Positions 21,039-53,601 of a DNA stretch of 64,000 nt are shown one piece after another. The stretch's first letter is position 1. Each line of letters opens with the position of its first letter. Source of the DNA: Polynucleobacter sp. TUM22923. Lineage in GTDB: Bacteria; Pseudomonadota; Gammaproteobacteria; Burkholderiales; Burkholderiaceae. Made by a program: the position numbers and the translations under genes. The stretch is from assembly GCF_030295705.1 (NCBI RefSeq), contig NZ_AP027274.1:1550001-1614000 (forward strand). Direction: 5' to 3'. The notes below the pieces were generated by a model. That model worked only from the letters and a program-made list of their open reading frames with translations. It was not told the origin of the DNA and ran no database searches.

Positions 21039-21515
21039 ATGAACAAACTAACTCATTTTGACGCCAGTGGGCAAGCCCATATGGTCAATGTTGGCGATAA
21101 GCCCCATACACACCGAATTGCCCTTGCTACCGGCAAGATTACGATGCTTCCTGCGACCTTCCAAATGATTGCGGCAGGCACCCATAAAAAAGGGGATGTC
21201 CTTGGAATTGCTCGGATTGCAGGTATTCAGGCATCTAAAAAAACCTCCGATTTAATTCCTCTATGCCATCCTCTGGCGTTAACCCATGTCAGTCTCGAGT
21301 TCGAACTTCAGGCAGTAGAAAACAGCATCACCTGCCAAGTAAGAGCAGAAACTACCGGACCTACTGGTGTTGAAATGGAGGCACTGACCGCTGTCCAAGT
21401 TGCCCTCCTCACGATTTATGACATGGCTAAAGCAGTTGATAGGGGCATGGTCATGGGCGATGTTCACCTACTAGAAAAGAGTGGTGGCAAGTCTGGGGAG
21501 TGGAAAGCAGCTTAA
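21039..21515 (+). CDS. moaC: cyclic pyranopterin monophosphate synthase MoaC
   Basis: MoaC turns 3',8-cyclo-7,8-dihydro-GTP into cyclic pyranopterin monophosphate in molybdenum cofactor synthesis. The 158-residue protein has [28 protein letters not shown] and MAKAVDRGM, the conserved catalytic segments. Its last 43 codons (21387-21515) recur exactly at 32827-32955: an integrative element inserted at the 3' end and replaced it with an identical copy, so the gene is intact. The element's integrase begins 81 bp downstream. Confidence 0.97.
21387..21515 (+). repeat. left attachment repeat (attL), moaC codons 116-158
   Basis: A 129-bp direct repeat, identical base for base to 32827-32955. Here it forms the functional 3' end of moaC. 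The recombination crossover must lie within it; its length reflects carriage of a replacement gene end rather than a short core site. Confidence 0.93.
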
Positions 21516-21595
21516 GTGGTCACTAACTAAAGCACAAGCAAAAGGAAGCATAAAACAGCTAGGGCCCAATTCTGTCCCAACAAGAGGCAGAAAAG

Positions 21596-22582
21596 ATGGC
21601 AACGTTTCGCAAAAGAAGTAATGGTAGATGGCAAGCACGGGTGAGACATCAGGGGCAAATCCCTGTCACCAAGACCTTTATTCACAAAGTAGATGCAGAG
21701 CGCTGGGCAAAGCAAGTTGAAGTTGAGTTAGATAAGGGCAGCTTTGTTAATCACGCCTTCGCAGAGCGCACGACATTTAAAGATCTCATAGAGCGCTATA
21801 CCTTGGAGGTGCTACCTACGATGCGAGGTGGTACTGCCGATTCGATACGATTAAGAGCCCTAGCCAGAAAGCCGATAGCACAGCTCAATATGGTTGCTCT
21901 AACACCGCAAAAGATTGCCCAATATAGAGATGAGCGACTAAAAGAAATTGCGCCCAGTACAGTTACTAGAGAGTTAGCCTACTTCTCCTCAATCATCAAT
22001 CACGCAAGACGAGAATGGGGTATCAATATCAGTAACCCCGTACTTCTGGTTAAAAGACCGGTGGGGACATTAAGTAGAAGTCGCATGCTAAGTGATGATG
22101 AATGGCATAGGCTGATGGAGGCTTTAAGACCTGTCAGACAAAAAAGTATTTGGATGCAACCCCTAGTAAGGTTGGCGCTTGAGACCGCAATGCGAAGAGG
22201 CGAGCTGTTATCACTGCACTGGGAGCAAATTAATCTTCTCAAGCGCACCGCAACCTTGCTCATTACAAAGAATGGTGACAGGCGCATAGTGCCACTATCG
22301 ACTACAGCGATAGAAATCCTTAGAGGACTTCCAAGAAACATAAATGGGCCAGTCTTTCCGATAACTCATGAAGTTGTATCGCAAGCTTTTAATAGAGCAC
22401 GTAAGGCAGCTGAAATAAAAGACATCCACTTCCATGACCTACGCCATATGGCGATTACTAGGCTTGCTGAGAAGCTTCCTAACTTGATTGAACTATCGGC
22501 AGTATCAGGGCACAAAAGCTTGGCTATGCTAAAAAGGTACTATCACCCAAATCCAGAATTGCTTGCCGAGAAGTTAGGGTGA
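21596..22582 (+). CDS. int: tyrosine recombinase/integrase
   Basis: The integrase should catalyse site-specific insertion and excision of the element at moaC. The 328-residue protein has an N-terminal AP2-like DNA-binding segment (RKRSNGRWQARVRHQG), a core-binding domain (about 60-150) and a catalytic domain with the expected residues: R in ETAMRRGELLSL, K in TKNGDRRIVPL, HDLRH, and GHKSLAMLKRYYH ending with the nucleophilic tyrosine. The ATG at 21596 follows AAAAG weakly. It is adjacent to the left attachment site and transcribed in the same direction as moaC. No excisionase gene is recognisable in the 169-bp AT-rich gap after it. Confidence 0.95.
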   Translation: MATFRKRSNGRWQARVRHQGQIPVTKTFIHKVDAERWAKQVEVELDKGSFVNHAFAERTTFKDLIERYTLEVLPTMRGGTADSIRLRALARKPIAQLNMVALTPQKIAQYRDERLKEIAPSTVTRELAYFSSIINHARREWGINISNPVLLVKRPVGTLSRSRMLSDDEWHRLMEALRPVRQKSIWMQPLVRLALETAMRRGELLSLHWEQINLLKRTATLLITKNGDRRIVPLSTTAIEILRGLPRNINGPVFPITHEVVSQAFNRARKAAEIKDIHFHDLRHMAITRLAEKLPNLIELSAVSGHKSLAMLKRYYHPNPELLAEKLG

Positions 22583-22751
22583 AAAAAAATTTGTTGTATT
22601 AAAACATCTATCAAAAAAATACATAACTAAATGAATTAATTAAGAAAAGTTCCTCAATACATCTTTATAGGAAGTTATTATTTTTATCATTGTGCACCCT
22701 TAAAAAACATATAAAAATGAATCCTGTTATGAATAACTTAAGGAATTAATC

Positions 22752-23279
22752 GTGTCAATAAATGCAAAAAGTAATGAAGCGACCTGGCTAAAACCGCTAT
22801 TTAAAAATATCCCTGAAGCACTAAAGAAGCAAGGGTGGGCGGTATGGAAGGCTGAGCCACGAGAGGGAAAGATTGGCAAGTTTAATAAAGCGCCAATTAA
22901 CCCGCTAACTGGCAATAAGGTGGGCTCAAATCAGCCGGGAAAGTTTATTACCTACGAACAGGCTAAGGCAGCCTATGAGGCGGGAAGTTACACGGGAGTG
23001 GGTGTACTTCTAACCGGCAATGGAATCATTGGGATAGATATTGATGATGCGGAGGAACTTTTCAAACTAAGACCAGAAATTAAAGAATGGGTTGATGGCG
23101 CTATTTCAGAAGGTGCTTATTGCGAAATATCACCTAGCGGAAATGGTTACAGACTATTTGTTTACGGAAAGCTTCCGGTTGACTGTAGAAAAAAGCAAGG
23201 CGGCTTAGAAATATATGACGATGTACGCTTTTTAACGGTTACAGGTAATGTTATCTCAGCTAAAAAGGTTGCGCAATGA
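22752..23279 (+). CDS. PrimPol-type (archaeo-eukaryotic primase fold) replication protein
   Basis: A 175-residue protein like the catalytic half of phage NrS-1-type primase-polymerases. KQGWAVWKAEPREGKIGKFNKAP binds nucleotides in this group, GVGVLLTGNGIIGIDIDD carries the metal-binding DxD motif, ISPSGNGYRLFV takes the place of the sGxGxH motif (an arginine stands where histidine is common), and LEIYDDVRFLTVTGN is the third motif. It probably primes or copies element DNA. Its stop overlaps the start of the next gene by 4 bp (ATGA), so the two proteins are co-translated. The upstream 22583-22751 gap is AT-rich with no gene. Confidence 0.8.
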   Translation: MSINAKSNEATWLKPLFKNIPEALKKQGWAVWKAEPREGKIGKFNKAPINPLTGNKVGSNQPGKFITYEQAKAAYEAGSYTGVGVLLTGNGIIGIDIDDAEELFKLRPEIKEWVDGAISEGAYCEISPSGNGYRLFVYGKLPVDCRKKQGGLEIYDDVRFLTVTGNVISAKKVAQ

Positions 23280-24859
23280 ACTATCAACTCATTCAAGGTC
23301 AACATTTGACAGACTCTTTTTTAAAGTTGCTACCATCCAGTTCATTGCAGACAAATAAACAAGACTACTCCAGCGGTACAAGCGGGTCAGTTCTTGAGCT
23401 GTCAATGGATTTAAAGTTAAAACTATCTCAAATTTTTATGGCTAATGCTCTACTAGATAAGCAATATAAAGAGTTATTTAACGGCGACCTATCCAAATAT
23501 GACAATGACCATTCAGCTGGAGATTTAGCTCTCATAGGATATTTTGTAAGGCAGGGATTGAGTACATCTGAGGCAGATACTGCATTTAGGTACTCTAAAC
23601 TCTATAGAGTCAAGTGGGACTCAAAACGTGGGGCACAGACTTATGGGGAAATCACTATCAAAAAGGCTTTTGAAGGAGCCGAATCACCGCATGTAAAACA
23701 AGAATCTAAAAACACTAATTCTGGCATCTCATTTCTTCATCATGATAATTACCAGCCCACCTATCATCCTCAAGGAATGACGGCTAGAACATTTGTAGGC
23801 CCTAATATTTGTATAGGTACGAGACTTTTCCCCTCAAAGGCACTCTCCTCTTTAGTTGCCTTAGGTGGGGTTGGTAAGACTTCTGTCTTAATGTCCATCG
23901 GCATTCATTTAGCAGCAGGAAAAGCTTGGAATCAGCACCCCCTTACACAGCAAAAAGTAGCGATGTTCTTTTGCGAGGAGACGCAAGAAGAAATTGATCG
24001 CAAGTTTAGCGCCATAGTTGATAGTTGGTCACTGCAAGACAGAGAGAAAGCCATTGAAAACTTTAGGGCAATTTCTTTTATAGGAAAGGATGCTCGACTG
24101 ACCCTTATCAGTGGAAAGCAATATACAGGTTCGGGGATGACTGAGAAAATTCTTCAACTTTTAGAAGAATTTGGACTAAAAGATGGCTTAGTTATTTTTG
24201 ATCATACCCAAGGATTTACATCTGGTGACCTGAATTCCTCAGAAACCTCGACCTCAATCTGTCTAGAGGCAAACAAAATAGTTGAGGCTACAGGGGCTGC
24301 CGTAGTGCTTGCTGCCCACGTTAGCAAGGCCAATATCAATGCAGATAGTGTAGGACAGGGTTTTGCAGTCGGCTCATTGGCTTTTGAAAATGCAACAAGG
24401 CAAATGTCCGGAATGACACATATGTCCACTGAACAAGCTAAGAAATTTGGCCTCGAAGGACTTCATAAGGATTATGTACGCCTTGGAGTTGCTAAAAATA
24501 GCTATGGTGAAATCACAGATGGTTTATGGCTTAAAAAGGTTTTTAGTCTTAAATTCCACACCGTTGTATTTGAGCCTGTGCAGTTATTTATACCAATCTC
24601 AACCGGAAAGTTAACAGCAAATCAACGATTAAGCTCACAAATTAAAGCCCATCTAGCTAAACATCTATTCACAACAAAAAATAATTTAGATGCACTCTCA
24701 GGGAAGGATGAGGACTTTAAAGCAAGTAAGGGGAAAATTAGAGATGCGGTGAAGGATTTGATTGATAGAGGCGAATTAATAATTCACTCAATCACGGAGG
24801 AAGAGCGCGAGCTACACCATCTGCCAAAACAAGTTAAAGAGGTATTAAGGGTTGCTTAA
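23276..24859 (+). CDS. RecA-fold replicative helicase (RepA-like) with PrimPol-associated N-terminal domain
   Basis: The 527-residue protein has an N-terminal region (about residues 75-135: AGDLALIGYFVRQG, FRYSKLYRVKWDSKR, YGEITIKKAF) that in NrS-1-type enzymes follows the PrimPol domain, and then an ATPase domain with Walker A GGVGKTS, VAMFFCEETQEE, Walker B LVIFDHTQGF and the sensor segment AAVVLAAHVSKAN, typical of RepA/DnaB-like hexameric helicases. Thus the PrimPol protein and this one together look like one primase-helicase machine split into two co-translated genes. The sequence is intact. It probably drives replication of the element in an excised form. Confidence 0.83.
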   Translation: MNYQLIQGQHLTDSFLKLLPSSSLQTNKQDYSSGTSGSVLELSMDLKLKLSQIFMANALLDKQYKELFNGDLSKYDNDHSAGDLALIGYFVRQGLSTSEADTAFRYSKLYRVKWDSKRGAQTYGEITIKKAFEGAESPHVKQESKNTNSGISFLHHDNYQPTYHPQGMTARTFVGPNICIGTRLFPSKALSSLVALGGVGKTSVLMSIGIHLAAGKAWNQHPLTQQKVAMFFCEETQEEIDRKFSAIVDSWSLQDREKAIENFRAISFIGKDARLTLISGKQYTGSGMTEKILQLLEEFGLKDGLVIFDHTQGFTSGDLNSSETSTSICLEANKIVEATGAAVVLAAHVSKANINADSVGQGFAVGSLAFENATRQMSGMTHMSTEQAKKFGLEGLHKDYVRLGVAKNSYGEITDGLWLKKVFSLKFHTVVFEPVQLFIPISTGKLTANQRLSSQIKAHLAKHLFTTKNNLDALSGKDEDFKASKGKIRDAVKDLIDRGELIIHSITEEERELHHLPKQVKEVLRVA

Positions 24860-25044
24860 ATCATGATCGCCAATCAGCCCGCCAAAGCAAATCTGCACTT
24901 AACAATAAAAACGGACTTCACAGCTATGATTTATAAAGATTGGTGCCCACTTTCTCTAGATCGCTTTTTGTTGGGTGGTATGGGCGGACTTCAAACCCAT
25001 AATGGCAATAGGTTTAAGCCCGCCTCATATTTACTACGTCTAAA

Positions 25045-25076
25045 GACGTTATCCCCGCTTTGGCGGGATATACGTC
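25045..25076 (+). terminator. hairpin after the PrimPol-helicase operon
   Basis: GACGT...ACGTC closes an inner near-perfect stem (TATCCCCGC/GCGGGATA, one bulge) with a TTTG loop, followed within 10 bp by a T-rich tract (CTTTTCTTTTT). It most likely ends the replication operon; an origin-related structure cannot be excluded. The surrounding 24860-25179 stretch has no convincing gene. Confidence 0.5.
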
Positions 25077-25113
25077 AGACAGTCTTTTCTTTTTGTGTAA
25101 TACAGAAATTTGT

Positions 25114-25679
25114 CTCGGTCATAGGTATGGCGGTTAACTTTAAAGGCCGCCTGCCTGACCCCTTTATTAAGGTGCAAATATGATTAAAAACCCTGAGCCT
25201 TTATTAGTTACTGCTGGTGGCAAGATAATTTGTCGGCGTTGTAAAGCCCAGTCATCTCGAACAAAGCTGCAGTGTGCTAAACCTGCTCTGAATGGCAAGG
25301 CAGTATGCTCAAGCCATGGCGGTAGAAGTACTGGGCCAAAAACAAAAGAAGGCAAAGCAAAGATACGAGCAGCCCACTATAAGCATGGTGAAGAGACTTT
25401 AGAAGCAAAAGCTGAGCGTAGTGAGAAGTCAACTATGTTTTATTACTTAGAGCTCATTGGTAATCATGTGGGGTTATTTGATGGGACCAATACTAATGGG
25501 CGTAAACCTAAGGGGGTGCTGGCTAAGCTTGACCTAAATGACCCAGAGCAACTTGTTCAAGCACTATCAAAAACACTACCTAAAGAAAAACCACCCTAAG
25601 GTGGTTATCTAGACTAAATAATGCGATCTATTGCTATCTTAACTAATCCTTACAAACCCACCGTATAAGTAGCCATCAC
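25114..25679. repeat. 566-bp direct repeat, copy 1
   Basis: Identical to 28963-29528 (offset 3849 bp) as far as I can compare base by base. It carries a complete 139-codon gene and, at its right edge, the last few codons of the autotransporter that is only complete beside copy 2. Copy 1 therefore looks like the derived duplicate. Confidence 0.9.
25180..25599 (+). CDS. small Cys/His protein with HGGRSTGPKT motif, copy 1
   Basis: A 139-residue protein starting with a putative zinc site (CRRCKAQSSRTKLQCAKPAL...VCSSHGG) followed by HGGRSTGPKTKEGKAKIRAA, a motif that recurs in many small phage and mobile-element proteins of unknown function. The C-terminal half is polar and helical. Its ATG is preceded by AAGGTG. 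An identical copy lies at 29029-29448 within the 566-bp repeat. Function is not established; nucleic-acid binding is a guess from the Cys/His cluster and basic charge. Confidence 0.7.
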   Translation: MIKNPEPLLVTAGGKIICRRCKAQSSRTKLQCAKPALNGKAVCSSHGGRSTGPKTKEGKAKIRAAHYKHGEETLEAKAERSEKSTMFYYLELIGNHVGLFDGTNTNGRKPKGVLAKLDLNDPEQLVQALSKTLPKEKPP

Positions 25680-25764
25680 CGTGCCAACGATACAACATAT
25701 CAACTTGATCTTTTACTGCCCATATTTTAGCTATATCTTCTTTTAGATCAAATTTAGTTTTCAT
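25639..25764 (-). CDS. 41-residue ORF coupled to a phage-like small gene, tail replaced by the repeat
   Basis: ATG 25764 overlaps the stop of the 61-residue gene upstream (ATGA), so it would be co-translated. The product begins MKTKFDLKEDIAKIWAVKDQ; its last roughly 13 codons fall inside the 566-bp repeat, where they are read in a frame different from the autotransporter. The original C-terminus was probably lost when the repeat was inserted. No family recognised. Confidence 0.45.
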   Translation of the reverse strand: MKTKFDLKEDIAKIWAVKDQVDMLYRWHGDGYLYGGFVRIS

Positions 25765-25946
25765 GCTTCCTCCACTGGTATCCAGCTTTTAACTGATGTA
25801 CTTAACAACCGTACTTCTGCCTGGGCATTTAAACAATGATCGTGTGCTTTCACAAAGTTTTGATTAACCAGCGCATCATGCGCCGCTTTGATTTCTTTTA
25901 GTGCTTCTAAGTAATATACTGAATAATCTATTTTAACATTCCCCAT
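25761..25946 (-). CDS. 61-residue phage-like hypothetical protein
   Basis: A small acidic-helical protein beginning MGNVKIDYSVYYLEALKEIK and ending SWIPVEEA. ATG 25946 lies 14 bp inside the end of the polymerase remnant and its stop overlaps the next ATG, so polymerase, this gene and the 41-residue ORF formed one phage-style operon on the minus strand. I do not recognise a family. A longer frame adds eight residues from 25970. Confidence 0.5.
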   Translation of the reverse strand: MGNVKIDYSVYYLEALKEIKAAHDALVNQNFVKAHDHCLNAQAEVRLLSTSVKSWIPVEEA

Positions 25947-26110
25947 AATTTCTGCCGTACCCTGCCTCACAATTTAAAGGCAACCCTTCCGCCCATTGCG
26001 GAACCCACTTCATACACTCTATAACATAGGCCATAGCCTCTTCTACTTCTGCCTCTTTAACAATACACGCTACTGCATCATGCACTGTCAATACGGTAAT
26101 CATCCCCTTT

Positions 26111-26935
26111 TTAACCTAAGCTAAAAGTAGAGGCTGGTACTGCAATTGCTAGTTTTTGTTTAGGAGTAATTCCTCCTAAACCCATATTGGGTCTTTCGTG
26201 ATTGTAGGTCCACATCCAGTGGGTTGCAAAATCTTGTACTTCATCAATCGATTCAAAGAGGTATTGATTAAGCCAGTCATATCTCACCGTACGGTTATAG
26301 CGTTCAATATAGGCATTTTGTTGTGGCTTACCTGGTTGGATGTAACTCATCTCTATCTGATGTTTAGCAGCCCATACAGTCAGGATGTTTCCTACGAGTT
26401 CGGGGCCATTGTCACAACGTATTTTTAAGGGCTTGCCACGCCATTCAATGATTTGATCGAGTGACCGGATCACTCGTACTGCGGGCATGGAAAAATCAAT
26501 ATCAATGGCCAAGGCCTCTCGATTAAAGTCATCGATCACATTAAAAAGGCGGATGGTTCTGCCGTCGTGCAACTGATCATGCATAAAATCAATCGACCAA
26601 GTGTCATTAATGCCTTGGGGTACAGCTAGTGGTAAAGGCTTTTCCCGAACCAAGCGTTTATGGGGTTTGATGCGTAAATTGAGCTCTAGTTCCTTATAGA
26701 TCCGATAAACCCGTTTGTGATTCCATTTAAATCCCTTCACGTTACGCAAGAACAGGTAGCAAAGACCAAAGCCCCAGTTACGTTGATTGTGAGTAAGACG
26801 AACCAGCCAATCGGCAATGAGGGCATTGTCAGTCGACAGCTTGGGGCTATAGTGATAGCAGGTCTGGCTAATGACAAAGGTGTCGCACGCTAAGCGGATG
26901 CTCATACGACCCTTTTTTACTTCTTGGCTGGCCAT
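26111..26935 (-). CDS. IS3-family transposase OrfB (DDE integrase domain)
   Basis: The retroviral-integrase-like catalytic half of the transposase. Conserved acidic residues are in [16 protein letters not shown] and [10 protein letters not shown], followed by the basic helix usual for IS3 members; the C-terminus [19 protein letters not shown] is also characteristic. It is 274 residues from the first ATG, but is expected to be made mainly as an OrfAB fusion through a -1 frameshift at the end of orfA. Confidence 0.95.
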
Positions 26936-26958
26936 CTCGCGGCGGCGAGATGGCCGAG

Positions 26959-27222
26959 TTACTTTTTTTGCAGAACTTCCTTTAAGACATCCGCCTGGAG
27001 TTGGACTTCGGCGTACATCTTCTTTAGGCGGGCATTTTCAAGCTCTAACTCTTTAACGCGGGACATCATAGAAGCATCCATACCGCCGTATTTAGAGCGC
27101 CACTTATAGAAGCTAGCAACGCTAATATTGTGCTCACGGCACAGTTCTGGGGCTGGCACGCCAGATTCGGCTTGTTTGAGGATGGCCATGATTTGGCTAT
27201 CGGTAAATCGGGAGGTCTTCAT
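26959..27222 (-). CDS. IS3-family transposase OrfA (helix-turn-helix)
   Basis: An 87-residue DNA-binding protein: [17 protein letters not shown] and [20 protein letters not shown] form the HTH, followed by a leucine-zipper-like coiled coil ([17 protein letters not shown]). The 3' end has A7 followed by G (plus-strand T run 26963-26969) immediately before the stop, a classic A-AAA-AAG slippery site, and orfB is in the -1 frame. Confidence 0.94.
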
Positions 27223-28019
27223 AGAATTTCCTTTAAATCAAACTACATAGAAATTCTACTTTTAAATCAAGTTAAGCTAGGGGATGATTACCATACCACT
27301 CGATACTTTGACGCAATACGTACCATCTGTTCCCCAATAATACTTCGTGCCAACCCCTGACATATATTCTCTACTAGCTTACCGCCATATATTTTATTGA
27401 TCCCACGCTTCGCATTGTAGACATACTGGTTCTTACCGGCCTCATCTATGGTTTTGTTTAGATTTGGGTAACGTTGATACAGGCCATTAGGCATCAAAAT
27501 ACCCTCTGTGCCCATTACTTGAATACAATCATTACCTAACACTGTGGTCTGATTACCGGCCATCGCCTCAATTGTTTTACCCGCTTGTTCCCAAAGTTTA
27601 GGGATCATTGAATAGGTTCTGCGGTATACGTCGATAATATGGCGAGCTTCCCCTTCGTCAATTTCCGTACCAAACGTTTTGAGTTGCGTTTGGAATTTCG
27701 GAGCGCCAATGCTCTAACCCGCCCCGAGGATAGTCGTCTTACCCACGAACCTTTCCTCCTTTGTGATTTCACTAACTTCCTTGCCGTATATAGCAGATGC
27801 CATGATGCTGTAAATATCCTGTCCATTTTTAAATGCCTCCGTTAAATCGTCTTGTCCTGCTAGCCACGCTAGCACTCTTGCTTCAATCTGAGCTGAGTCA
27901 GCATCAATCATTAAGTACCCTTTAGGCGCCATGATAGCCTTCTTCAACTTCCCTCCGTTTGCCCCTCTACTTGGTAAATTCTGTAGGTTTATCTTATCAG
28001 CGCCACCCCAGCGTCCAGT

Positions 28020-28874
28020 ATGGGCAGCGTGACCGAGGAAATCATGGTGATTTGCTATGGATTTGGTGCAAATGGCAAAAGTGTGATGTCCAATGTCATT
28101 CAACATATTGCAGGTGGATATGGGAAAACAGGCTCCCCTAGCCTTCTAAAAGCCAGGCGGGATGATGATAGTAGCCCTCGCTCAGACATTGCTGGTTTGG
28201 CTGGTTATCGCTATATATCGCTTAATGAAATGCAAAGCGGAGACCGCCTTGATGAGCAAGTAGTAAAGCTTTTGGCAGGTAGAGAGGCAATTAGTGCCAG
28301 AGCTTTATATAAAGACCATATGACCTATAAGCCCTCGGGTAAGGTGTGGCTAAAAACAAACCATAAGCCAGTAGTCAAAGAAGATGATGATGGCATTTGG
28401 CGTAGGTTAGTTGTAATCCCATTTGCCCGTAAGTTTGCAGAGGCTGAAAGAGACCCCAATCTTGAAGAAAAGTTAATCCAAGAGGCTGATGGCATATTGG
28501 CATGGATTGTTGAGGGCGCTGTTCAGTGGCATAAGGGTGGCTTAGCTATATGCCAAACCATCAAACAAGAAAGCTCTGAATACAGAACAGAATCTGACTT
28601 GCTTGGACATTTCTTGACGGAAAAAATTGAATTTGACGCTACGGCTCGAGCAATTGAGGCAGATGTGTACTTTTATTACCAAAATTGGTGTCGTGCAAAC
28701 GGGACTAATCCACTCTCAAAGATTCGGCTTACCCAAAAACTTAAAGAGCGTGGAGCAAGACAACTGCCATCCAATGGGAAGCGCTATTACTCAGGCATAA
28801 AGTTAGTTGAATTTAAAGAAGTAGGTAGTATTTTTGAACCAGTGCAGGTAGTGCAGGTTTTATCGTTTTTCTAG
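28020..28874 (+). pseudogene. P4/D5-type primase-helicase, 5'-truncated
   Basis: The 284 residues are the helicase part of a phage or plasmid P4-type primase: Walker A GFGANGKS, Walker B YISLNEM, the arginine finger GIWRRLVVIPF and a C-terminal winged-helix region. The normal N-terminal primase domain and the start of the helicase domain are missing, because the frame begins at GSVTEEIMV right where it meets the truncated polymerase gene running the other way. It may still be translated from ATG 28020, but there is no good ribosome-binding site. Probably a remnant of a second, displaced replication module. Confidence 0.75.
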
Positions 28875-28962
28875 AAAGTCTTCCATGAAAGATTATTAAA
28901 AAGGTTTTTTATTTTGATACAAAAGTATGCACTCCCTGCACTTTGCAAAAGAATCGATAAGG

Positions 28963-29528
28963 CTCGGTCATAGGTATGGCGGTTAACTTTAAAGGCCGCC
29001 TGCCTGACCCCTTTATTAAGGTGCAAATATGATTAAAAACCCTGAGCCTTTATTAGTTACTGCTGGTGGCAAGATAATTTGTCGGCGTTGTAAAGCCCAG
29101 TCATCTCGAACAAAGCTGCAGTGTGCTAAACCTGCTCTGAATGGCAAGGCAGTATGCTCAAGCCATGGCGGTAGAAGTACTGGGCCAAAAACAAAAGAAG
29201 GCAAAGCAAAGATACGAGCAGCCCACTATAAGCATGGTGAAGAGACTTTAGAAGCAAAAGCTGAGCGTAGTGAGAAGTCAACTATGTTTTATTACTTAGA
29301 GCTCATTGGTAATCATGTGGGGTTATTTGATGGGACCAATACTAATGGGCGTAAACCTAAGGGGGTGCTGGCTAAGCTTGACCTAAATGACCCAGAGCAA
29401 CTTGTTCAAGCACTATCAAAAACACTACCTAAAGAAAAACCACCCTAAGGTGGTTATCTAGACTAAATAATGCGATCTATTGCTATCTTAACTAATCCTT
29501 ACAAACCCACCGTATAAGTAGCCATCAC
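28963..29528. repeat. 566-bp direct repeat, copy 2
   Basis: Second copy of the repeat at 25114-25679, here continuous with the full autotransporter gene at its right end and with the primase-helicase remnant at its left. Confidence 0.9.
29029..29448 (+). CDS. small Cys/His protein with HGGRSTGPKT motif, copy 2
   Basis: Identical in sequence to the protein at 25180-25599, including its ribosome-binding site. The two genes lie in the same orientation 3849 bp apart. Perfect identity implies a recent duplication or gene conversion. See copy 1 for the motif description. Confidence 0.7.
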   Translation: MIKNPEPLLVTAGGKIICRRCKAQSSRTKLQCAKPALNGKAVCSSHGGRSTGPKTKEGKAKIRAAHYKHGEETLEAKAERSEKSTMFYYLELIGNHVGLFDGTNTNGRKPKGVLAKLDLNDPEQLVQALSKTLPKEKPP

Positions 29529-31211
29529 TGTTGTAGTACTCACTCCTTGATACGCTTCTTGTCTGTAAATACCAGTCACTCCTAAGCGTTGATTCTTAGC
29601 AACATCATAGTAAGCACCAATAGAAGCTGTTGGACGAGTTTTAACTGGATTACTGTTGAAGTTAATTGGGGTTAAACCAGTCACTCCTGTAGCAGAGTAA
29701 GAACCGTTCGCTGTATTGGTATCTGTTTCTACACCAGCACTTGCCATTAAGGTTGTTTGTGGAATGCCGTTATACCTAGCACCCACACCAGCTAATGCGG
29801 TTGTAGCGTTGGTATTAAGTGCTGAGTAAGTAAGTGGTGCTGTGACTGCTGTACTAGTACCTTCTGTATAGCCACCCATATTGTTCTGGGTATAACGAAC
29901 ACCAGCGTATGGACTAACGATGACATTGTCAGCCACACCAAAGCCATACTTCACAACAGCTTGTGCACCTTGACTGTTTAACTGTGAACCACCAGAGCCA
30001 GCTTCACTGGTACCAACAACACTACGAGTTACTGTGGTGTTCTTTTGTCCATAAGCGGCTGTTACTTTGACTTCCGTACCAGTGCCATCTAAACGCTCAT
30101 TCCAAGCACCGAATACGCCAATGAGTGGGGTGTTGTTACCTAGGTTTACTGTGGATCCTGCGTTGTTTACTGAGAGGTTCTGGTCAGCATAGGCACCAAT
30201 ACGAATACTAGGTTTGACTCTGTAAGCAGCGATTAATAAACCACTCGTATTGTTTAAACCATTGGCTGCTGATACCGCAGTATTACGTCCACCAGCACTT
30301 ACGCACACATTGTTATCACCAAATACATCACAGTCGTAACTAAAGCTATTGGATAGTACGGAGTTTTGTAGGGTGTAAGTATTTTGAAGGGCTGATGCGG
30401 TGTTGGCTAGGGAGGCTTAGGTATCGGTGGTTGAAGCGCCTGTAACAATTAAGTCCCAAATGCTGCCAGAAGAGTTATTTAGGCGCCAAGTAAAACCGTT
30501 GTAATTACCTGCAGTAGTGCCAGCCAGATTAGCAGACGTCATGCCAGAGAGAACTCTTGAGTAAGTGCCTTTTGCAATAACCGAGGCGGCTACTCCGTTG
30601 ACTCCACCAGCGTAGATTCCAAAGTTGGTAGAGCCTGTAACGCTGATACCTGATAACTGTCCATAGTTAATGGCGGAGTTGATGATGATGTTGTAGTTTG
30701 TGGGTAGGGCACCTTTATAAGTTAACGCACCGTTTGTGTTGCCAACCCCTTGAGCATTATTAAGGTTGGTAATTGTGCCATTGTTATTAATTCCCTCAGT
30801 AAGTCCTGTAATCGTGCCAGTATTATTTAGAGTGCCAATCAATGAACCTGGATCGTTATATACGCCAGAGCTACCACCTATAATCCTGCCATTATTATTA
30901 AGTAAGCTAATGCTGCCCGAGGAGTTATTCCAAATTCCATCTAGGGTGTTGCCACTATTTAAAATATCCCCATTATTGATAATTACAAGTCCTGTTTTAC
31001 CTTCGCTAGCTATCCCATATTCACTGTTATTGTTAATAGATCCTGTGGAGGTAACTGTAAAACAAAGATTGTCGGAGGTGATACTTTGCTTGCCTGAAAT
31101 GGAGCTTGACACAGTAGTAGTGCCACCAGTACAAGTTTGCGCCTTTATTCCACCAGAAAATATAGCCGCACTAGACAGCATTAACACTAAGAAAATATTC
31201 TTTAATTTCAT
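29499..31211 (-). pseudogene. autotransporter (type V secretion) with internal stop
   Basis: Frame-consistent halves give one 570-codon gene broken by a single TAA at 30417-30419. Residues 1-24 form a signal peptide (IFLVLMLSSAAIFSGG). The passenger has Asn/Gly-rich beta-helix-like repeats (NNGDILNSGN, NNNGRIIGGSSG, NNTGTITGLTEG). After the stop comes a C-terminal beta-barrel domain with alternating strands (SGLLIAAYRVKPSIRIGAY, AVVKYGFGVADNVIVSPYAG, RLGVTGIYRQEAY), ending at the membrane in MATYTVGL. The stop sits where CAA (Gln) is likely, one C-to-T change. The protein would normally be exposed on the cell surface. Its last codons lie within the 566-bp repeat. Confidence 0.85.
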
Positions 31212-31321
31212 TTCAACACCTAATAATAGTTATTTTTTTCACTTCAATTATTTTCAAAAATAATATCACTAGTTAGCTGTACAGCTAATAAATATTTTAT
31301 AAAATCTGCCTATTAATGGTG

Positions 31322-32380
31322 CGTAGATTCAAACACGAAGTGCAACACGGTTTAAGGACTGCATAAACACTTCATTGGGGGTTTTAAATCCCAACCTCTT
31401 ACGAGGTCGGTTATTAAGCTTGCTTTCAATCATTCTAAGCTCCTCATCAGTTACGGTGGATAAAGGCCTCTTTTTGGGGATGTATTGCCTTAGTAAGCCA
31501 TTGAAGTTTTCATTAGAACCGCGTTGCCAACTGGCAAAAGGATCAGCAAAGTAGGTGGTGGATTGCAGTGCTGTATCAATCCGGGCGTGCTCGGCAAATT
31601 CCTTTCCGTTGTCATAAGTTAGTGTTTTGACCTTAGCTTGATAGGGGGCCAGTCCTTCAATAATGGCGTTACCTACCAGGGTCGAAGTTTTATTGGGTAC
31701 TTTGGCTAGAACAGCATAACCACTCTTGCGCTCCACTAAGGTCACAATAGCTTGTTTGTGCGCTGCCCCAATCACGGTATCGCCTTCCCAGTGACCGACT
31801 TGAGATCTGGCTTCAATATGCTCTGGGCGCTCACTAATCGGCCTTCTGCCTACGATCTGGCCTCGTCGATCCCGGCCACTGGCATAGCGCTTTTTACGTT
31901 TCTTTTGACAGCGTAACTGCTGGTAAAGAGTGCCACCAGCGGCTTTATCAGCATAAACATGGCGATAGATGGTCTCATGGCTAATCCCTACAACATCTGC
32001 GATTTGCTCAGGGCTCCATTGGTCTTGTAGGTACTCTACCGTTTGATCCCAATCAGCTGGGGTGATTTGGGTAGCATTACGAGAGCCTAGGGAGCGTTCC
32101 TCTGCTAATAAACAGGCTTGTCTCGGTCGATATCCTCTGCCTCCGGTATTGCGAGATAGCTCTCGGCCAATGGTCGACTTATGTCGATTCATGAGCTGGG
32201 CGATCTGGCTTTGGGTTTTTCCGTCTTTCATGAGGATATAAATCTGATATCGTTCTTCTTGGCTAAGGTGTTGATAGGTCATGGCTACTTTGACTTGCAG
32301 GTCTAGAAACTATGGATACTAAAATATCCTTAGCCACTAGCTCTAATTGATCAAAGTTGCACTTCGTAGTTGAATTCACC
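31322..32380 (-). mobile_element. IS30-family element, copy 1 (1059 bp)
   Basis: Imperfect terminal inverted repeats (about 20 of 25 bp match, inner core ACGAAGTGCAAC) and a 3-bp target duplication GTG on both sides (31319-31321, 32381-32383). Length and transposase equal those of the copy at 52543-53601. It lies inside the moaC element, downstream of the autotransporter. Confidence 0.93.
31329..32282 (-). CDS. IS30-family transposase, copy 1
   Basis: A 317-residue DDE transposase. The N-terminus MTYQHLSQEERYQIYILMKD and SQIAQLMNRHKSTIGRELSR is the IS30 HTH; the second region HVYADKAAGGTLYQQLRC is IS30-like; catalytic residues lie in GHWEGDTVIG, LTYDNGKEFAEH and SNENFNGLLRQYIPK. The translated sequence equals the second copy residue for residue, implying recent transposition or gene conversion. 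Confidence 0.96.
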   Translation of the reverse strand: MTYQHLSQEERYQIYILMKDGKTQSQIAQLMNRHKSTIGRELSRNTGGRGYRPRQACLLAEERSLGSRNATQITPADWDQTVEYLQDQWSPEQIADVVGISHETIYRHVYADKAAGGTLYQQLRCQKKRKKRYASGRDRRGQIVGRRPISERPEHIEARSQVGHWEGDTVIGAAHKQAIVTLVERKSGYAVLAKVPNKTSTLVGNAIIEGLAPYQAKVKTLTYDNGKEFAEHARIDTALQSTTYFADPFASWQRGSNENFNGLLRQYIPKKRPLSTVTDEELRMIESKLNNRPRKRLGFKTPNEVFMQSLNRVALRV

Positions 32381-32413
32381 GTGCAAAACATCGTGCAAAG
32401 AACCTTTTTAACT

Positions 32414-32459
32414 AAAAGCAGTGTTTTTCTAGCCTAAACACTCAAAAAACACTGCTTTT
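32414..32459. terminator. 15-bp perfect inverted repeat at the element right end
   Basis: AAAAGCAGTGTTTTT (32414-32428) is matched by its exact complement at 32445-32459 with a 16-nt loop. AT-rich flanks give terminator-like tracts on both sides. It lies between the IS30 copy and the right attachment repeat. Confidence 0.6.
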
Positions 32460-32826
32460 GTATAAACCCCCCACTCTGCTACCCCCAAACCTCCAGCCAG
32501 ATTGCCTTCCAAGCTCTCTGCTGCCATATCTTTAGGAGCCAGTGATAATGAAGGTCGTTCAAAATAATGCTCTCCCACTGTGCAAAACCTAGTGCGTAGA
32601 TAAATTTAAGTACCTAAACCGAAAAGTTGGTGTATAGGGTCATTAAAAAGGGTGCTTTTAAAACGCATATGCGGTACCCCCCCTTCCAGTATGAAGGTTC
32701 AAATACGCTTCGTGGTACATTCATCTCTGGCCCAAATTGGGCCCAATAGTATTTATTCAAACCAGTAGAATTGCGCTCTATAAAGTTTTAAGTTTTTCGT
32801 AATTGCTTGTTTTTATTAGGTTTTTC
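32460..32826. other. non-coding right arm of the moaC element
   Basis: No convincing gene is seen in this stretch. It contains a palindrome GGCCCAA-A-TTGGGCC (32729-32743) and the 9-mer GGGCCCAAT (32739-32747), which also occurs next to the left end at 21562-21570. These are candidate integrase arm sites; the assignment is inference. Confidence 0.5.
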
Positions 32827-32955
32827 ACCGCTGTCCAAGTTGCCCTCCTCACGATTTATGACATGGCTAAAGCAGTTGATAGGGGCATGGTCATGGGCGA
32901 TGTTCACCTACTAGAAAAGAGTGGTGGCAAGTCTGGGGAGTGGAAAGCAGCTTAA
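32827..32955 (+). pseudogene. moaC 3' remnant, right attachment repeat (attR)
   Basis: An exact copy of moaC codons 116 to stop, without promoter or start codon. This is the original chromosomal gene end, displaced by insertion of the element. The host terminator at 32987-33011 follows it. Confidence 0.93.
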
Positions 32956-33040: not shown

Positions 33041-33616
33041 TTACTTTCTGCCAGTAATGCGGCATTCTGACGGTAAAAGCTGTGGCAATAAGCTTGTTTC
33101 AGTCGATCTGCACGACCATCCTCCAGCCCAAGTTGTACCCTCCGGCTTGGACAAATCAATCATCCTTGGAATATTGCTATCTGGGTCATTTGTTGGAATA
33201 AGGTGAAGTGTATTTTTGCCGTCTGGGGCAACGTTACTTTGATAGTCGATCTCAATTGCTCCGGATGGGGTAATCTCAATGAGCTTGACGCTGCGAGTGG
33301 TAACAAATGTAAATGATCCATCTGTCGCCTCATTCATCGGCGCCGTTCCACGACTCGCAAAAGCTTCTGTCACAGCCAACTTTGCACTTGAGGATAAGTT
33401 CATTCCTTCCACGATGCGACTGCGTGCAATGTAATCCTGATACTGAGGTACCGCTACGGCAACAAGGATGCCGATGATGGCAACTACCACCATCACTTCA
33501 ATTAGGGTGAAGCCTGATTCTGACTGGCCTTGTGTTTGTTGTGTTTGTTGTGTTTGTTGTGTTGGTTGCTGTTTTGGTTGCCGTTTGGACTGCTGTATTT
33601 GTACTGACATTTCCAT
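33041..33616 (-). CDS. type IV pilin-like protein with long Gln-rich leader
   Basis: The processing and assembly motif is clear: G35-F36-TLIEVMVVVAIIGILVAVAV, with Glu at mature position 5, followed by YQDYIARSR as in PilA-like major pilins. The mature part is about 156 residues with two C-terminal cysteines (WSCRST, PSECRI) that may form the D-region disulfide. The leader is unusual: 35 residues before the cleavage site, made of Gln/Lys/Thr with QTQ-type repeats encoded by four 9-bp tandem units (33533-33568), where type IVa leaders usually have fewer than 10. The start is ATG 33616 behind GGAG. No other pilus gene is close. Confidence 0.88.
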   Translation of the reverse strand: MEMSVQIQQSKRQPKQQPTQQTQQTQQTQGQSESGFTLIEVMVVVAIIGILVAVAVPQYQDYIARSRIVEGMNLSSSAKLAVTEAFASRGTAPMNEATDGSFTFVTTRSVKLIEITPSGAIEIDYQSNVAPDGKNTLHLIPTNDPDSNIPRMIDLSKPEGTTWAGGWSCRSTETSLLPQLLPSECRITGRK

Positions 33617-52542: not shown

Positions 52543-53601
52543 CGTAGATTCAAACACGAAGTGCAACACGGTTTAAGGACTGCATAAACACTTCATTGGG
52601 GGTTTTAAATCCCAACCTCTTACGAGGTCGGTTATTAAGCTTGCTTTCAATCATTCTAAGCTCCTCATCAGTTACGGTGGATAAAGGCCTCTTTTTGGGG
52701 ATGTATTGCCTTAGTAAGCCATTGAAGTTTTCATTAGAACCGCGTTGCCAACTGGCAAAAGGATCAGCAAAGTAGGTGGTGGATTGCAGTGCTGTATCAA
52801 TCCGGGCGTGCTCGGCAAATTCCTTTCCGTTGTCATAAGTTAGTGTTTTGACCTTAGCTTGATAGGGGGCCAGTCCTTCAATAATGGCGTTACCTACCAG
52901 GGTCGAAGTTTTATTGGGTACTTTGGCTAGAACAGCATAACCACTCTTGCGCTCCACTAAGGTCACAATAGCTTGTTTGTGCGCTGCCCCAATCACGGTA
53001 TCGCCTTCCCAGTGACCGACTTGAGATCTGGCTTCAATATGCTCTGGGCGCTCACTAATCGGCCTTCTGCCTACGATCTGGCCTCGTCGATCCCGGCCAC
53101 TGGCATAGCGCTTTTTACGTTTCTTTTGACAGCGTAACTGCTGGTAAAGAGTGCCACCAGCGGCTTTATCAGCATAAACATGGCGATAGATGGTCTCATG
53201 GCTAATCCCTACAACATCTGCGATTTGCTCAGGGCTCCATTGGTCTTGTAGGTACTCTACCGTTTGATCCCAATCAGCTGGGGTGATTTGGGTAGCATTA
53301 CGAGAGCCTAGGGAGCGTTCCTCTGCTAATAAACAGGCTTGTCTCGGTCGATATCCTCTGCCTCCGGTATTGCGAGATAGCTCTCGGCCAATGGTCGACT
53401 TATGTCGATTCATGAGCTGGGCGATCTGGCTTTGGGTTTTTCCGTCTTTCATGAGGATATAAATCTGATATCGTTCTTCTTGGCTAAGGTGTTGATAGGT
53501 CATGGCTACTTTGACTTGCAGGTCTAGAAACTATGGATACTAAAATATCCTTAGCCACTAGCTCTAATTGATCAAAGTTGCACTTCGTAGTTGAATTCAC
53601 C
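52543..53601 (-). mobile_element. IS30-family element, copy 2 (1059 bp)
   Basis: Same ends and length as copy 1 at 31322-32380, with target duplication TGA (52540-52542, 53602-53604). It lies 5 bp from the stop codon of the gamma-carbonic anhydrase gene, between that gene and the TRIC gene. Confidence 0.94.
52550..53503 (-). CDS. IS30-family transposase, copy 2
   Basis: Identical in sequence to the transposase at 31329-32282 (317 residues). Both copies have the same orientation relative to the chromosome and lie about 21 kb apart, flanking recA, sucCD and the phototrophy cluster. See copy 1 for motifs. Confidence 0.96.
   Translation of the reverse strand: MTYQHLSQEERYQIYILMKDGKTQSQIAQLMNRHKSTIGRELSRNTGGRGYRPRQACLLAEERSLGSRNATQITPADWDQTVEYLQDQWSPEQIADVVGISHETIYRHVYADKAAGGTLYQQLRCQKKRKKRYASGRDRRGQIVGRRPISERPEHIEARSQVGHWEGDTVIGAAHKQAIVTLVERKSGYAVLAKVPNKTSTLVGNAIIEGLAPYQAKVKTLTYDNGKEFAEHARIDTALQSTTYFADPFASWQRGSNENFNGLLRQYIPKKRPLSTVTDEELRMIESKLNNRPRKRLGFKTPNEVFMQSLNRVALRV

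Follow-up and report, generated by a model that had tools for sequence, protein, structure and literature searches.

Several integrative elements are known to enter the ends of protein-coding genes. SGI1 is directed to thdF and SXT to prfC, with secondary sites and tandem arrays on record (PMC2297512), and at icd, as at many tRNA genes, the attachment site of the element (attP) replaces the end of the gene (PMC10111431). The PICMI of Vibrionaceae are minimal satellites of which, in the available text of their authors, no complete example is reported outside Vibrio (PMC10803314). The literature match nearest to an element at moaC is CMGI-A of Cupriavidus metallidurans CH34 and BS1, for which a table entry names moaC (Rmet_4428) at the edge (PMC7019866). 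Here, a stretch of 64,000 nucleotides (the window) was analysed from the genome of Polynucleobacter sp. TUM22923, a single contig of 1.86 Mb (NZ_AP027274.1, positions 1,550,001 to 1,614,000). Positions ~21424 to 32863 of the window very probably form an integrative element whose attP replaces the end of moaC, and which most likely moves in the particles of a helper phage.

The segment is the footprint of a site-specific integration. The end of moaC is present twice as an exact 129-bp direct repeat with an offset of 11440 bp, and the repeated part comprises codons 117–158 and the stop codon (Table 1). An earlier interpretation based on the letters alone (the sequence-only reading) had recognized this perfect repeat around ~11.4 kb and the tyrosine integrase just past moaC, which indeed starts 80 bp after the moaC stop codon; its assignment of the repeat to the moaC end was right, and its first codon, 116, had to be corrected. 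A chance origin of the repeat is ruled out, as the whole 64 kb contains three exact direct repeats of at least 40 bp: the moaC repeat, one of 566 bp inside the segment, and a pair of IS30-type insertion sequences. The empty site is found at locus L135 of genome G158, whose moaC is the nearest in the genus besides that of the window (97% protein identity). There, the stop codon of moaC is directly followed by the right flank of the window, with 89% identity over 843 bp. An integrase beside the left attachment site (attL), a target end repeated in the same orientation and a relative with the empty site are thus found together, as expected of an integrative element. Relatives of which moaC has no second end, which the sequence-only reading had proposed to look for, also lack the segment. 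Its proposal that the element inserts in moaC and restores the gene end is upheld by the empty site, by an off-target insertion and by a family of elements at moaC, all described here.

Replacement of the gene end, and the point of crossover, can be read directly in the sequence of a misdirected relative. In Polynucleobacter hallstattensis (locus L055, presumably identical to L190 of G166), the element lies in an unrelated coding gene, and the host's own moaC (L148) is untouched and followed by the pilin gene. The left end of this element begins with moaC codons 129–158, its right end finishes with codons ~109–129, and the host sequence joins it at TATGG on both sides. As just 74 of 87 bases agree between the element-borne moaC end and the moaC of the host, this end did not come from this host. 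The junctions indicate that a moaC end belongs to the element itself and that crossover takes place at TATGG, at codons 128–129. The second moaC ends of four loci of the Paraburkholderia group (L074, L097, L099 and L102) begin at ATGTGCAA, the same spot as the L055 crossover; those of the other loci begin further upstream. Residues D128 and K131 at the crossover are numbered as in the aligned MoaC, which we take to be that of E. coli, and are presumably catalytic. Apart from the moaC portion, no Pfam family matches the gene that the element breaks in L055, at ~9830 and ~15190.

The attP with its replacement end is seen in L055 and not in the window copy, both ends of which are identical. In the window, moaC is taken to be of host origin up to ~21425 and element-borne from codon ~129 to codon 158. 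The closeness of the attL and right (attR) sides to host relatives was compared in ten relatives, with L184 left out (misassigned reading frame): in six the two ends were identical over 72 bases and in three they differed, in no consistent direction.

The element belongs to a family that was delineated by searching with an alignment of seven moaC-side integrases, which yielded 80 loci in named genomes. In 56 of these, moaC ends at most 250 bp upstream of the integrase, and it is nearly full length in 50; a 57th case, L056, shows the last 15 codons of moaC alone before the contig edge. A second moaC 3′ end is present in 25 of the 40 moaC loci with at least 5 kb of downstream sequence, and the distance from the integrase start to the second end is 3.5–10.6 kb (27 loci with a second end). 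The nearest named relatives of the window integrase are from Polynucleobacter, and the genera of the family include Polynucleobacter, Limnohabitans, Cupriavidus, Ralstonia, Paraburkholderia, Burkholderia and Methylotenera. When 150 genomes of the taxonomic family were drawn, 29 loci were obtained besides that of the window; the six most similar (51–58% identity) are preceded by moaC, and in the remaining 23 there is no moaC in the 1.5 kb on each side. These are common, small and apparently unnamed mobile elements of freshwater and soil bacteria.

A second target is pntB. Its 3′ end lies upstream of the integrase in eleven moaC-less loci with upstream sequence and in L049; the label rests on the Pfam family PNTB in the three scanned and on inspection by eye of the same sequence in the others. 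A second pntB end was found in two of ten loci tested (61 bp at ~8.0 kb in L042 and 67 bp at ~7.4 kb in L049, both exact), 10 kb of downstream sequence being available in just four of the ten. A tree of 85 integrases was rooted at the midpoint; it excludes L089, L097, L099 and L102 (internal stops), L098, L108 and L112–L114 (partial) and the viral L120–L133. One group of 72 (support 100/96) unites the moaC and pntB rows with L050 and L116, which have another or unknown site. Nine of the ten pntB rows and the short contig L050 make up one supported group among the moaC rows, with L057 apart; for L104–L107, L110 and L111, upstream genes were checked for moaC alone. With the pntB rows among the moaC rows, the tree, whose root is no more than a midpoint, fits a switch of target from moaC to pntB. 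As to integrase homologues at other targets, the point on which the sequence-only reading could have failed, the closest ones are at moaC and a sister group is at pntB. On a contig from a viral collection (L116:1-1206), an integrase of the same group follows what appear by eye to be the first codons of a ferredoxin gene, perhaps a third target.

Within the genus, moaC is present in 176 of 186 genomes, with two or more matches (E-value 1e-5) in 32. Once three ambiguous genomes are set aside (G181 and G185, where the gene is broken, and G311, whose long second copy is unclear), 29 of the 176, about one in six, have an additional moaC 3′ end. The extra end is away from moaC in G166 and G211, and in a few genomes it is on another contig. 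Among 30 loci that were fetched, moaC is followed by the pilin gene without integrase in 18, seven have an integrase (window included), and the remaining five show neither in the available sequence. A further 16 loci have a full moaC and a second end, followed by the pilin gene in 12. Since the integrase is whole in just eight of these 16 (a fragment in one, none in seven), many copies in the genus are decayed or stripped of their integrase. Two consecutive moaC ends in L184 (G225) represent a stack of two elements. At L189 (G211:C1:106000-120000), away from moaC, there are two tandem integrase-less remnants of ~2.7 kb, both of which contain a moaC end and a large gene that looks TPR-like by eye.

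Most elements contain paired sites TGTCCAAAT, 11 bp apart, ~20–35 bases before the integrase and roughly 16–120 bases before the second moaC end. In the window segment, the pair occurs twice, at the ends alone; in the rest of the window it occurs twice in 103,800 strand-bases. In the 25 elements with the pair at both ends, the left and right variants agree without exception (18 A, 6 C, 1 T), an agreement matched by none of 100,000 shuffles, which do not remove relatedness. Outside these 25, the pair is absent from one or both ends in seven of 32 elements. The paired sites are probably arm sites of the integrase.

The Pfam scan of the window covered 18 proteins, moaC and pilin included, from open reading frames of at least 69 residues. 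Replication genes, anticipated by the sequence-only reading, are present as a helicase with NrS-1 HBD and AAA_25 domains, preceded by a primase-like protein; the split between the two is the same in L039. In agreement with that reading, none of the 18 proteins matched a family of virion, packaging or conjugation proteins. An autotransporter gene occupies the same place before the second moaC end in L191, and a related gene the same end in L038, so that of the window is regarded as cargo. The 566-bp repeat bounds a unit of 3,849 bp that holds the remains of a phage-type polA and of a D5 gene, besides an IS3-type element. The sequence-only reading makes no mention of this repeat, of the polA and D5 remains or of the two insertion sequences. 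The two IS30-type copies (1,059 bp, one inside and one outside the element) are exact, which points to recent IS30 movement. When the 3,849-bp unit and the IS30 copy are subtracted from 11440 bp, ~6.5 kb are left, within the 3.5–10.6 kb of the family, with the gene order integrase, primase-like protein, helicase, HGG protein, autotransporter. The window copy looks like a ~6.5-kb element that has grown by these two additions. The 3,849-bp unit may have been gained when a related circular element recombined once with the resident one within the 566 bp common to both.

Table 1. Features of the moaC element and its borders (window positions).
Feature	Position	Strand	Evidence
moaC, intact, 158 aa	21039..21515	+	Pfam MoaC, 136/136 positions
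Left repeat copy, attL side	21387..21515	+	Exact match to 32827-32955
Predicted crossover core ATGG, left copy, moaC codon 129	21423..21426	+	L055 junctions; Paraburkholderia-group repeats starting at ATGTGCAA
Paired arm-like sites, left end, GGGCCCAAT / TGTCCCAAC, 11 bp apart	21562..21580	+	
Tyrosine integrase, 328 aa, open frame	21596..22582	+	Phage_integrase, E-value 1.1e-28; alignment; tree
Primase-like N-terminal protein, 175 aa	22752..23279	+	Weak below-cutoff BT4734-like match; clusters with primase-helicases
NrS-1 HBD + AAA_25 helicase, 527 aa	23276..24859	+	Pfam
566-bp exact repeat, copy 1	25114..25679	+	Sequence identity
HGG zinc-finger-like protein (cluster C1), copy 1	25180..25599	+	Protein clustering
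Broken family A DNA polymerase, split by IS3-type element	25933..28106	-	DNA_pol_A, 5.8e-24 for 27714-28106; piece 25933-26103 assigned by eye
IS3-type insertion sequence	26111..27275	-	rve, HTH_Tnp_1; inverted ends
D5-type primase-helicase, C-terminal fragment	28020..28874	+	DUF5906, Pox_D5
566-bp exact repeat, copy 2	28963..29528	+	Sequence identity
HGG zinc-finger-like protein, copy 2	29029..29448	+	Identical to copy 1
Autotransporter gene, two open reading frames, broken near 30400, cargo	29499..31211	-	Autotransporter, 5.1e-12 for 29499-30308
IS30-type insertion sequence	31322..32380	-	Exact second copy at 52543-53601
Paired arm-like sites, right end, TGGCCCAAA / GGGCCCAAT, 11 bp apart	32728..32746	+	
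Right repeat copy, attR side, displaced original moaC 3′ end	32827..32955	+	Exact repeat; empty-site relative
Predicted crossover core ATGG, right copy	32863..32866	+	Offset 11440 from left core
Host pilin gene, right flank, after moaC in empty-site relatives	33041..33616	-	Pfam Pilin

When the window element is compared with 27 relatives, the integrase is the common part, and various types of primase or helicase are found repeatedly. A scan of 140 other proteins of at least 90 residues, from 23 relatives, was evaluated on the 25 commonest of 48 and the 25 commonest of 117 families. Primases and helicases lead these lists, in which there is no virion family; defence models matched by single genes include, among the matches listed, PD-Lambda-2, TmtA, caspase and others. 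Nor was a virion family found in ten larger proteins scanned from loci whose available sequence shows no second end; they comprise efflux, ABC, GmrSD and AAA/OLD-like proteins, the same AAA_25-NrS-1 helicase as in the window and one protein without match. AlpA is present in L052. Half of the 28 elements (14) encode a protein of the HGG cluster, named after a C-C-C-HGG pattern; with two each in the window and L070, the cluster has 16 members. The predicted structure of the HGG protein has a pLDDT (predicted local distance difference test) of 76, and the protein gives weak matches to two PHROG families without assigned function.

Two further observations concern single relatives or clusters. A 249-residue Mob_Pre relaxase is encoded inside the moaC element of L064 (L064:11335-12081), at least one such protein among the 140, and because of it some relatives may move by conjugation. 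Cluster C4 (L054:11114-12619 and relatives) consists of proteins of ~500 residues in the position of the replication gene; it has no Pfam match and matches PHROG 4756, of unknown function. Its motifs DYS and HDS may correspond to those of family A DNA polymerases. A search of PDB sequences with the C4 alignment gave no match, and the predicted structure (mean pLDDT 43.5) was not used.

The following scheme would account for these data. The integrase would recombine the TATGG core of moaC with an attP bearing moaC from codons ~109–117 to the stop, probably by binding the paired arm sites at both ends. This would leave an intact host moaC at the left and displace the original 3′ end to the right end, the element measuring 11,440 bp from core to core. 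Upon excision, it would circularize and restore attP inside the moaC-end copy, and the circle would replicate with the primase-like and helicase genes. Transfer would occur in helper phage particles, as for minimal satellites of the PICMI type, with cargo on board: the autotransporter in the window, defence-like genes in relatives. We infer arm binding, excision, replication and the helper phage; helper particles are proposed because no transfer machinery of its own was recognized. The element is most likely helper-dependent and phage-satellite-like.

Several results weigh against this interpretation. A search of 50,697 phage records gave no match to the HGG protein, which counts against a link to phages. 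No exact terminal overlap that would betray a circular form was found at the contig ends of 20 loci (11 of them whole contigs), L056 having a near-terminal match of 39 bp. As the two window copies are identical and their repeated part (codon 117 on) is about as close to L135 (0.921) as the rest of moaC (0.928), the window copy itself gives no proof that its gene end is foreign; its donor would have been of the same lineage, or the copies would have been evened out afterwards. The 15 other loci among the 40 with enough downstream sequence show no second moaC end in it. The arm motif was defined after the ends had been viewed, including those of the window, so the pair count is partly circular; the four supported independent pairs of the tree all agree in their variant, too few for significance (sign test, p 0.125). 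Finally, there is the Mob_Pre relaxase of L064.

This relaxase favours an integrative mobilizable element, which would integrate in the same manner and travel by hitching on a conjugative plasmid or an integrative and conjugative element, and plasmids, too, are known to carry replication genes of the prim-pol and AAA_25 kinds. We consider this unlikely, though the most serious competitor, as the 18 window proteins include no relaxase family, PF03432 is absent from the whole window genome (control matched), and the 140 proteins from 23 other elements contain, among the matches listed, at least one Mob_Pre; a Mob_Pre search of the window genome gave no match, nor did its control, which leaves that search uninformative. 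The satellite- or plasmid-like family of the sequence-only reading is likely, given the small size, the replication genes and the lack of recognized virion genes, and unproven, with Mob_Pre in one relative. An ordinary prophage remnant that lost its virion genes is improbable. It would explain the broken phage-type polA and D5 pieces, and related integrases do occur in phage records with up to 39% identity, but relatives of 4–10 kb repeatedly show the same small size and the same plan of integrase and replication genes, in many cases together with the HGG protein, and the 25 commonest families in either list for the 140 proteins include no virion family. The perfect identity of the two moaC ends would suit a recent tandem or segmental duplication, with the integrase nearby by chance and without action. 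The probability of this is negligible in view of the empty site, the recurrence at moaC in many genera, the single integrase group and the arm sites; a plain duplication is also contradicted by the off-target insertion of L055.

Returning to the helper-dependent element, a broader proposal is made tentatively and falls somewhat short of probable: that widespread, unnamed minimal phage satellites of Betaproteobacteria share one integrase group directed to moaC and then to pntB, that the HGG protein acts on the helper or on packaging, and that they constitute a freshwater and soil counterpart of the marine PICMI in which the attP-borne end keeps a cofactor enzyme working. If the satellite reading is true, minimal satellites extend from marine vibrios to abundant freshwater bacteria. 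The family offers a clean natural system for the study of how an integrase group passes from one target gene (moaC) to another (pntB) and still leaves the gene complete; the point of crossover, the likely arm sites and one misdirected insertion can all be read from sequence.

The choice of a coding gene is not exceptional. The sequence-only reading had held it to be much rarer than tRNA targeting, which finds no support in a census of ~1.75 million islands, with 43.4% in protein-coding sequences and 33.8% in tRNA or tmRNA genes (PMC12424338). Integration follows an established mechanism, and the moaC/pntB family is without description in the literature searched: none was found by title and abstract opening, subscription papers and the TIGER table lying outside the search, and the available main text of PMC10111431 and PMC12884075 makes no mention of moaC. 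CMGI-A differs from the window element by its size of ~87 kb, and no mechanism of moaC integration is described for it in the available text; it was compared by description only (PMC7019866). The attP of icd elements carries a replacement gene end, as does that of the window family (PMC10111431). SGI1 and SXT resemble the window family in their integration at the end of a coding gene, their secondary sites and their tandem arrays (PMC2297512). All three have other target genes and other integrases; moreover, SGI1 is mobilized by conjugation and SXT is conjugative (PMC2297512), and the secondary pntB site of SXT is at the 5′ end, whereas the window family hits the 3′ end. PICMI are close in several respects, being small (6.1 kb for the prototype), equipped with integrase and primase, devoid of capsid and terminase genes, and directed to a fixed site at a coding gene (PMC10803314). 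They differ in their site, the hallmark fis instead of moaC, and in their 17-bp repeat, compared to a gene-end repeat of 129 bp. Their set of int, alpA and prim is incomplete here, as AlpA (PF05930) is absent from the whole window genome (control matched in E. coli), though the relative L052 has one.

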